A stretch of 38,295 nucleotides of DNA from an uncultured Bacilli bacterium (GTDB taxonomy: Bacteria > Bacillota_I > Bacilli_A > RFN20 > CAG-826): positions 1 through 38,295 of the forward strand of contig CALVHN010000009.1 of the NCBI GenBank assembly GCA_944327845.1, read 5' to 3'. The notes under the pieces are model-generated. The model was not told the DNA's origin. It saw only the letters and a list, made by a program, of their open reading frames with translations, and ran no database searches. The first letter of the stretch is position 1, and each line of letters begins with the position of its first letter. The position numbers and the translations under genes are program-made. Of the stretch, positions 22,989 to 24,398 are shown piece after piece.

Positions 22989-24167
22989 TTACTCTGTATA
23001 TGTTTTAATTAATTGTTTAATAACTTCAACTTTATCAAGCTTTTCATATGGTAAATCAAGATCTGGTCTTCCAAAATGTCCATAATTGCTTAACTTATGA
23101 TATTCAAAAGTTGGTTTTCTTAAAGAGAAATTTTTGATAATTGCTCCAGGTCTTAAATCAAAGACTTCATTAATAATTTTTAAAATTAATTCGTCAGTAT
23201 ATTTGCTAGTTTTAAAGGTAGAAATATTAATAGATAAAGGTTCTGGTTTTCCAATTGCATAGGAAAGTTGAATTTCCAATCGATCAGCAATTCCAGCCGC
23301 AACAAGATTTTTAGCAATATAGCGAGCCATATATGCTGCAGTACGATCAACTTTAGATGGATCTTTTCCTGAAAAAGCTCCACCACCATGTCGAGCATAT
23401 CCTCCATAAGTATCAACTATTATTTTCCTTCCAGTTAATCCTGTATCTCCCATTGGTCCACCGATAACGAATTTTCCAGTAGGATTAATTAAATATTTAA
23501 AATCTGTATTTAAATTAAATGATTTGGCAACTTCTTGCATTATATTTTCATGAATAAATTTCTTAAATTCTTCCTCGTTATAATCTTCATCATGTTGAAT
23601 AGACATTAACATGTTATCAATTTTAGGATTTATTTTATTTGTATAATCAATTGTAACTTGAGATTTCATATCACAACGAGCATGCTTAAAAACACCTTCT
23701 TTTCGTAAATTAGTAGCAACTCGAACTAATTTATGGGCAATACTAATTGCAAGAGGCATATAGCCTTCTGTTTCATTTGAAGCATAACCAAACATAATCC
23801 CTTGATCGCCTGCTCCCTGAAGCAAATAATTGTTGTTTTTTACTCCTTGTCTAATATCAGGAGATTGAGCTTTAATTAAGTTTACAATTTTAACTGTTTT
23901 ATAATTAAAACCATACTCGTCTTTATCATAACCAATATCTTTTATTACATCTTTTGCAATCTTTTCAATATCAATCTTATCAATTGCTTTAGAAGTGATT
24001 TCTCCACCAATAATTAAAATATTAGTTGAAGCAAAACATTCACAAGCAACAAACGAATCTTCATCATATTTTAAGCATTCGTCTAATATAGCATCAGCTA
24101 TTTGATCGCAAATTTTATCAGGATGCCCTTCGCTAACGCTTTCAGAAGTAAATAAAATTTTTTCCAT
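22989..24167 (-). CDS. metK: S-adenosylmethionine synthetase
   Basis: A 392-residue methionine adenosyltransferase making SAM from ATP and methionine. Signatures are SVSEGHPDKICDQIADAI near residues 10-27, GAGDQGIMFGYA near 117-128 and the phosphate loop RHGGGAFSGKDPSKVDR near 260-276. Length and sequence are standard. AAGGAGAAT precedes the ATG. It is controlled by an upstream SAM-type riboswitch and terminator, which lets the product shut off its own gene. Confidence 0.97.
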   Translation of the reverse strand: MEKILFTSESVSEGHPDKICDQIADAILDECLKYDEDSFVACECFASTNILIIGGEITSKAIDKIDIEKIAKDVIKDIGYDKDEYGFNYKTVKIVNLIKAQSPDIRQGVKNNNYLLQGAGDQGIMFGYASNETEGYMPLAISIAHKLVRVATNLRKEGVFKHARCDMKSQVTIDYTNKINPKIDNMLMSIQHDEDYNEEEFKKFIHENIMQEVAKSFNLNTDFKYLINPTGKFVIGGPMGDTGLTGRKIIVDTYGGYARHGGGAFSGKDPSKVDRTAAYMARYIAKNLVAAGIADRLEIQLSYAIGKPEPLSINISTFKTSKYTDELILKIINEVFDLRPGAIIKNFSLRKPTFEYHKLSNYGHFGRPDLDLPYEKLDKVEVIKQLIKTYTE

Positions 24168-24222
24168 AAATTCTCCTTATTTTTCTAAAAAACATTGCTA
24201 ATCTATATTTTTATATAAAAAA

Positions 24223-24245
24223 GCCTTCCACATTTTATGGAAGGC
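24223..24245 (-). terminator. Regulatory terminator of the metK leader
   Basis: GCCTTCCA and TGGAAGGC pair around 7 nt, followed on the minus strand by TTTTTT. It lies between aptamer and metK. A competing antiterminator is possible: TATGTGAAG (24261-24253) can pair with CTTCCATA (24243-24236), 8 bp with one bulged U, consuming the terminator 5' arm. The antiterminator is inference. Confidence 0.85.
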
Positions 24246-24262
24246 ATTTATTCTTCACATAG

Positions 24263-24362
24263 CTTATCGTTCAAAGTGTGGACACTTTGCTATTAGAAGC
24301 ACTTACTTTTAAAAAGAGTTGCTACCGTATTTTTTCACTAATATTATACGGTTCTTGATAAG
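24263..24362 (-). ncRNA. SAM-clan riboswitch (SAM-I-like, P2 without kink-turn) upstream of metK
   Basis: On the minus strand the RNA folds like a SAM-I aptamer. P1 is CTTATC (24362-24357) with GATAAG (24268-24263). Joining AAGA follows, as in the conserved AUCAAGA. P2 is ACCGTAT/ATACGGT (24352-24346 and 24330-24324), then the conserved GCAAC (24322-24318), a weak P3 (about 24301-24319), GTGCT, and P4 CAAAGTG/CACTTTG (24289-24283 and 24278-24272). The P2 loop TATTAG (24343-24338) is fully complementary to CTAATA (24296-24291) in the P3-P4 joint, the place of the SAM-I pseudoknot. The kink-turn GGAGGGA motif of P2 is missing. Ligand SAM is inferred from this core and from metK. Confidence 0.8.
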
Positions 24363-24369
24363 TGTAATA

Positions 24370-24398
24370 AGTCTATCTTAAAAATTAATCTAAATCAA
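24370..24398 (-). promoter_or_regulatory. metK promoter
   Basis: TTGATT (24398-24393), a 17-bp spacer and TAGACT (24375-24370). The predicted start, near 24363-24365, falls directly at the first base of the riboswitch P1, which supports both calls. Confidence 0.6.

Follow-up and report, generated by a model that had tools for sequence, protein, structure and literature searches.

A SAM-I-type metK leader without a P2 kink-turn in uncultured gut Bacilli and a candidate switch through P4

Introduction

The leader of metK in an uncultured Bacilli bacterium raises the question of how a SAM-I-type aptamer would be built, and how it would switch, without the kink-turn in P2, the textbook bend needed for forming the SAM-I ligand pocket. 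The kink-turn has been described as conserved in SAM-I aptamers (review, PMC2258182), and in the SAM-I riboswitch of T. tengcongensis the kink-turn mutation A1nC abolishes SAM binding (PMC5061560); an aptamer without a kink-turn might therefore have low affinity, or depend on a different ligand or on a partner. An earlier note on this locus described a SAM-clan RNA with a plain P2 and an intact pseudoknot, and suggested that it might be a minimal or intermediate form of the clan. Here, we ask to which class this RNA belongs, whether its kink-turn is lost or replaced, and how it may control metK.

Results

A leader bounded by a promoter and a terminator precedes metK

The window, that is, the whole 38,295-nt stretch of DNA analysed, carries metK, encoding methionine adenosyltransferase, on the minus strand at 22989–24167 (TIGR01034, 541 bits versus a cut-off of 309), and all other features of the window described here are on the same strand. 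Read in this direction, the leader consists of the promoter pair followed by CACUUAUC AAGA ACCGUAU AAUAUUAGUGAAAAA AUACGGU AGCAACUCU...AGUAAGUGCU UCUAAUA GCAAAGUGUCCACACUUUGAAC GAUAAG, a linker and a terminator. The promoter (24370–24398) comprises a −35 element TTGATT (24398–24393), a 17-nt spacer and a −10 element TAGACT (24375–24370), which ends 7 nt 5' of the first paired base of P1 (C at 24362). It is weak, with a consensus score of 8/12; three congeners (L038, L042 and L044) score 9–10/12 with TATAAT at an equal distance, relatives have TTGAAT-17-TATAAT at the same position, and a score of at least 9 was reached in 39 of 80 leaders compared with 5 of 80 shuffled ones. The intrinsic terminator (24223–24245) has a 10-bp stem formed by a 5' arm (T5, 24245–24236) and a 3' arm (T3, 24232–24223) around a loop at 24235–24233, with a U6 tract directly after the stem (24217–24222); the number of terminator-like sites expected by chance is 0.3. 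Promoter and terminator thus lie where the earlier note had placed them, and the interval 24223–24398 runs from promoter through terminator, with the aptamer proper at 24364–24263. The 3' end of a gene for a small TSCPD-domain protein (TIGR03905; 24401–24658) lies just upstream of the metK promoter, and similar-looking genes precede metK in several relatives.

Standard annotation hardly detects this element. The SAM-I model RF00162 matched the locus at 24364–24261 with 44.9 bits versus a cut-off of 44.4, with the full model aligned and under permissive filters only; the default Rfam scan of the window listed no SAM family, the whole-genome search with RF00162 gave no match, and 3 of 38 family leaders tested reached the cut-off. 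Weak matches to ncr1575, Phe_leader and other Rfam families, which stayed below the respective cut-offs and owed their score to the terminator hairpin, were rejected. A covariance model built from 26 leaders (R1) scored 108.3 bits at 24364–24263 in the window and matched 163 of the family's 196 genomes, among them 103 of the 116 of good quality, and 31 of its 35 genera. In the order, 194 of 279 genomes had R1 matches, those in other families being mostly to ordinary SAM-I, and a signature scan of named genomes matched almost exclusively uncultured gut Bacilli. metK was present in 58 of 59 relatives, and the element was found upstream of it in 28 of 30 loci fetched; of the other two, one is truncated by the end of its contig and one, which belongs to a different family within the order, lacks the element. 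Wherever leaders of the genus and family were read, they lie directly upstream of metK.

Additional metK-like genes, with about 41–49% identity to the window MetK, were found in genomes G015, G025, G036, G048 and G054 (loci L072–L075 and L002), and some of them have a DNA adenine methylase-like gene as a neighbour. The picture suggests SAM synthetases borne by phages or mobile elements.

The aptamer has the SAM-I fold and a covarying pseudoknot

The aptamer (24263–24364) contains P1–P4 in the SAM-I order. P1 pairs CUUAUC (24357–24362) with GAUAAG (24263–24268), and its 5' strand is followed by AAGA in J1/2 (24353–24356), which is the SAM-pocket strand in SAM-I, fits the RF00162 consensus and is conserved among relatives. 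P2 (24324–24352) is a 7-bp hairpin, ACCGUAU-[15-nt loop]-AUACGGU, without an internal loop or kink-turn. Its loop holds the 5' strand of the pseudoknot, UAUUAG (24338–24343), and between this strand and the P2 3' strand the alignment of leaders has a conserved UGAAAAA (24331–24337), possibly a remnant of the UGA strand of a kink-turn. P3 (24298–24323) carries the core words GCAAC and GUGC, as placed by the RF00162 alignment; J3/4 holds the 3' strand of the pseudoknot, CUAAUA (24291–24296), and P4 is the hairpin CAAAGUGUCCACACUUUG (24272–24289).

The leader folds more stably than expected (z = −4.9; 0 of 200 shuffles as stable). Among 83 leaders of relatives, in an alignment that was fitted to the structure and is biased in its favour, standard pairs occupied 98.2% of pair cells versus 79.4% in shuffles, double-sided changes occurred at 21 of 27 pairs, and the covariation score was matched by 0 of 500 shuffles. 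Slid controls, which were 27–41% paired, and the unfitted first MAFFT alignment, in which P2 was 94.5% and P4 98% paired, are both consistent with this result. In the same leaders all pairs of P2 (7/7) and P4 (6/6) covary; P1 changed on both sides at five of six pairs, with the pocket-proximal U-A invariant (83/83) and the A-U kept in 80/83, and the P3 pocket pairs, five core pairs in all 83 leaders, are invariant. A further pairing, of GUGA in the P2 loop with CACUUA on the 5' side of P1, is feasible in some members of the genus and was rejected; many congeners have AACUUAUC without CAC.

In the window, UAUUAG (24343–24338) and CUAAUA (24296–24291) form a perfect 6-bp pseudoknot. We scored this pairing without an alignment, as the best complementarity between P2 loop and J3/4 with partners swapped between species as the control: for 78 distinct leaders, own partners scored 13.56 versus 9.98 across species (sd 0.25; maximum of 200 shuffles 10.67). 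The pairs are divergent and include, besides UAUUAG/CUAAUA, GUUAAG/CUUAAC, AGAGAA/UUCUCU, AUUGGC/GCCAAU and GAGGGC/GCCCUC. Judged by these complementarities, the P2-loop/J3-4 pseudoknot is real. The order of P1–P4, the AAGA and GCAAC core words, the SAM-I-type P4 and the intact pseudoknot, all read from a single sequence in the earlier note, are borne out, and the covariation that it proposed to look for in relatives was found for P1, P2 and the pseudoknot alike.

P4 and the linker have alternative partners in the terminator

The linker UAUGUGAAG (24253–24261) is complementary to the terminator 5' arm CUUCCAUA over 8 bp with one bulge, a pairing found in predicted folds of truncated transcripts and a constrained fold and also by covariation. 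In addition, UCCACA in P4 (24277–24282), the proposed switching strand, is complementary to the terminator 3' arm. Between the loop and 3' arm of P4 and the loop and 3' arm of the terminator, own complementarity was 15.28 versus 12.85 across species (sd 0.25; 74 leaders). When each of 28 genera was represented by a single leader, which reduces but does not abolish the shared ancestry that the shuffles remove incompletely, the values were 14.41 versus 12.18 for P4 × T3 (median z 5.4) and 14.26 versus 11.86 for linker plus P1 3' end × T5 (z 5.7), while the mismatched controls gave z −0.1 (P4 × T5) and z 1.5 (linker × T3). Compensatory P4/T3 pairs include CCCAGAA/UUCUGGG (L133, L145–L147), CCCAUAAC/GUUAUGGG (L136), CCACG/CGUGG (L032, L150), CCCACC/GGUGGG and CCCACU/AGUGGG (L127), and some of the P4-matching bases sit in the terminator loop, that is, outside the constraint of the terminator stem. 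Because the T3 bases paired by P4 belong to the terminator stem, P4 × T3 and the terminator are mutually exclusive, and the simplest reading of the sequences is that P4 × T3 would be an antiterminator. In constrained folds of the window at equilibrium, the P4-captured antiterminator has −10.4 and P4 plus terminator −21.1 kcal/mol; with the terminator ahead by about 11 kcal/mol, the P4 antiterminator, if correct, must act kinetically. The earlier note had proposed a terminator with a possible antiterminator; the terminator is present, whereas the antiterminator was left vague, and the evidence favours P4 × T3 plus linker × T5.

How would SAM be coupled to these pairings? In classical switching, the P1 3' side and the linker would compete for the terminator 5' arm, and P4 × T3 would be secondary or otherwise used. 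P1 sequestering the switching strand has been described for SAM-I (PMC3656099), antiterminators with the P1 3' strand were seen in the outgroup leaders L006, L020 and L001, and the linker × T5 covariation is as strong as that of P4 × T3. Outgroups had the higher absolute linker × T5 complementarity (16.04 versus 14.46), which in several leaders includes the P1 3' strand, and the P4 × T3 signal was not found in them (10.62 versus 10.48). However, the P4 × T3 covariation is specific to the family and includes terminator-loop bases, and the P1 3' strand alone is barely more complementary to T5 than across species (9.59 versus 8.91). Moreover, the linker–T5 helix of the window leaves P1 intact, the two coexisting in predicted truncated-transcript intermediates; because this helix is compatible with P1, SAM coupling would have to run through P4. 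For these reasons we consider purely classical switching unlikely, albeit the most serious competitor, and favour P4 as the place of SAM readout, a reading that leans on the predicted folds.

Of note, P4 has nearly vanished in four family members (L120, L121, L142 and L143), in which J3/4 runs into P1 via UCGCCUCCAAUGAC, and P4–terminator switching is therefore inapplicable to them as described here.

The kink-turn is absent from P2 throughout the family

P2 is a single hairpin in all 80 parsed family leaders. None of them has, clear of the pseudoknot strand, an inner helix of the kink-turn type flanked by GA/GA, in agreement with the absence of the kink-turn noted earlier for the window. In 31 of the 80, a helix of 3–5 bp is possible inside the P2 loop; it overlaps the pseudoknot strand, is unconserved and has no GA/GA flanks. 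A second kinked helix inside P2, being unconserved in the 80 leaders, was rejected. Among outgroup metK leaders, L003, L005 and L290 have kept an inner helix with GA...GAUGA, and L006, L007, L009, L013 and L287 have degraded versions of the kink-turn, so that stages of kink-turn decay are visible. In f20, another family of the class that is possibly Erysipelotrichales-like, the P2 internal loops (GUUUUAAA strand) of some metK leaders (L287, L294 and L288) misfit the canonical kink-turn. With such loops outside the canonical form, sequence comparison suggests that decay may have occurred more than once.

We also considered that the kink-turn has been replaced rather than lost, with an unrecognised, non-canonical bend motif in P2. 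Conservation of the UGAAAAA strand extends from the genus to many other genera; in the lysine riboswitch and RNase P, kink-turns are substituted by other kinked elements, and SAM-I functions with a pk-turn (PMC4316175). The lysine riboswitch offers a parallel in that most members of the class have the kink-turn and some lack it (PMC2258182, PMC4316175), but it has another aptamer and ligand and a different kink as the replacement. P2 of the family, however, has no kinkable second helix, and such inner helices as can form are weak, lack conservation and share bases with the pseudoknot strand, making a replacement improbable and outright loss the preferred reading.

An inability of the cells to use kink-turns is an unlikely cause of the loss, as SAM-I elements with a kink-turn occur in some of these very genomes. 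L7Ae/YbxF-type kink-turn-binding proteins (PF01248) were found above the cut-off in none of 26 genomes of the window's genus; a match or borderline match was present in three of nine other family members and in more than half of 24 genomes from the order's other families. The absence of these proteins might be related to kink-turn loss, an association that is suggestive only.

SAM is the expected ligand

Because the pocket words match SAM-I, the gene is metK, and spermidine variants alter the pocket, SAM is the ligand to be expected from the sequence. The identification of the leader as a SAM-clan RNA on metK agrees with the RF00162 alignment of the pocket words and the TIGR01034 match. Kink-turn loss is a large structural change, and a SAM-I-derived aptamer with a changed ligand (SAH, spermidine or another) has a precedent: spermidine riboswitches are reported to have a SAM-I-derived architecture, to act as transcriptional off-switches and to include one example upstream of a metK (PMC10853860). 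As described there, they alter the nucleotides of the SAM pocket and have a polyamine gene context; by comparison with this description, the window RNA keeps both the pocket and the metK context. In the family, AAGA, GCAAC, GUGC and the P1 A-U and U-A pairs (80/83 and 83/83) are conserved, and every leader read has metK as its target. A changed ligand is thus very unlikely.

The RNA probably belongs to a derived SAM-I lineage

Of the three models that the earlier note had suggested running, RF00162 alone matches the locus, and does so with permissive filters; RF00634 (SAM-IV, cut-off 38) and RF01725 (SAM-I/IV, cut-off 41.1) gave no locus match in eight family genomes. Membership in SAM-IV or SAM-I/IV, or a position between those and SAM-I, is hardly credible: the P2 internal loop is also absent from SAM-I/IV variants (PMC2864571), but neither model matches, P4 has its SAM-I position between P3 and P1, the 3' P5/P3-loop pseudoknot arrangement was not seen, and the nearest outgroups are SAM-I. 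SAM-IV shares the SAM core of the clan with the window RNA. In the SAM-I/IV crystal sequence, P2 is capped by GAGA and the pseudoknot strand is absent from that loop (PMC5393176), whereas it lies in the P2 loop of the window RNA; the SAM-I/IV solution is therefore a different one. Because its closest relatives from other families are SAM-I RNAs of the ordinary kind, in which the kink-turn is either canonical or degraded, we conclude that the RNA represents a derived SAM-I lineage, and the suggestion of an intermediate form of the clan is not upheld.

The order also contains what are in effect mirror-image elements, which match RF00162, keep a canonical kink-turn and the pseudoknot and have no P4 hairpin (CCAUAAAGAG...GGGACAAGCCC...GUGCUAAAGCUUG..AUGAUGG). 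They were found in L002 (1501–1583), L008 (1501–1609), L012, L014–L019 and L022–L025, some in the same genomes (e.g. G002, G004, G008 and G015), and lie upstream of either small genes of unknown function or a second gene of the metK type; their signature is also present in four IMG/VR viral contigs.

Discussion

The window RNA shares with SAM-I (S box, RF00162) the P1–P4 four-way junction, the P2-loop/J3-4 pseudoknot, the pocket words, the metK target and the terminator. It differs in that P2 is one short hairpin without a kink-turn and the P4 loop is complementary to the terminator. Because it departs from SAM-I in one structural feature, the kink-turn, and agrees in the others, we call it a new variant; the best reading is a structural variant that is new within the known SAM-I class rather than a clan intermediate. 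Full-text literature searches, the coverage of which excludes key subscription papers, returned no prior description of a kink-turn-free SAM-I. Taken as a whole, we consider it probable that the RNA descends from SAM-I, lost the kink-turn of P2 in its own lineage and controls metK by premature termination, with P4 partly replacing P1 in switching.

We infer that SAM is the ligand, that the switch is an off-switch and that P4 is its switching element. With SAM bound, P1–P4 and the pseudoknot would be closed and P4 folded, the terminator 3' arm would pair with its own 5' arm, and transcription would stop. When SAM is scarce, the linker would hold the terminator 5' arm while the opened loop and 3' arm of P4 would capture the terminator 3' arm, and metK would be transcribed. 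In this aptamer, the loop of a short and straight P2 itself holds the pseudoknot strand, with a flexible UGAAAAA-like strand after it, an arrangement that would replace the bending of a long P2. That the whole family docks its pseudoknot from a straight, kink-turn-free P2 and has moved the switching strand from P1 to P4, with the signal lying in whether P4 or the terminator 5' arm captures the 3' arm, is a more tentative proposition, to which we give slightly less than even confidence.

A natural version of SAM-I without the kink-turn, retained across a bacterial family and with an intact pocket and pseudoknot, would allow the purpose of the bend, and the ways in which an RNA can manage without it, to be tested directly, and the degraded kink-turns in nearby families make the loss traceable step by step. 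The lineage has apparently rewired its own switch through P4. Because standard Rfam annotation misses nearly all members, metK of these gut bacteria is probably annotated as SAM-controlled less often than it should be.
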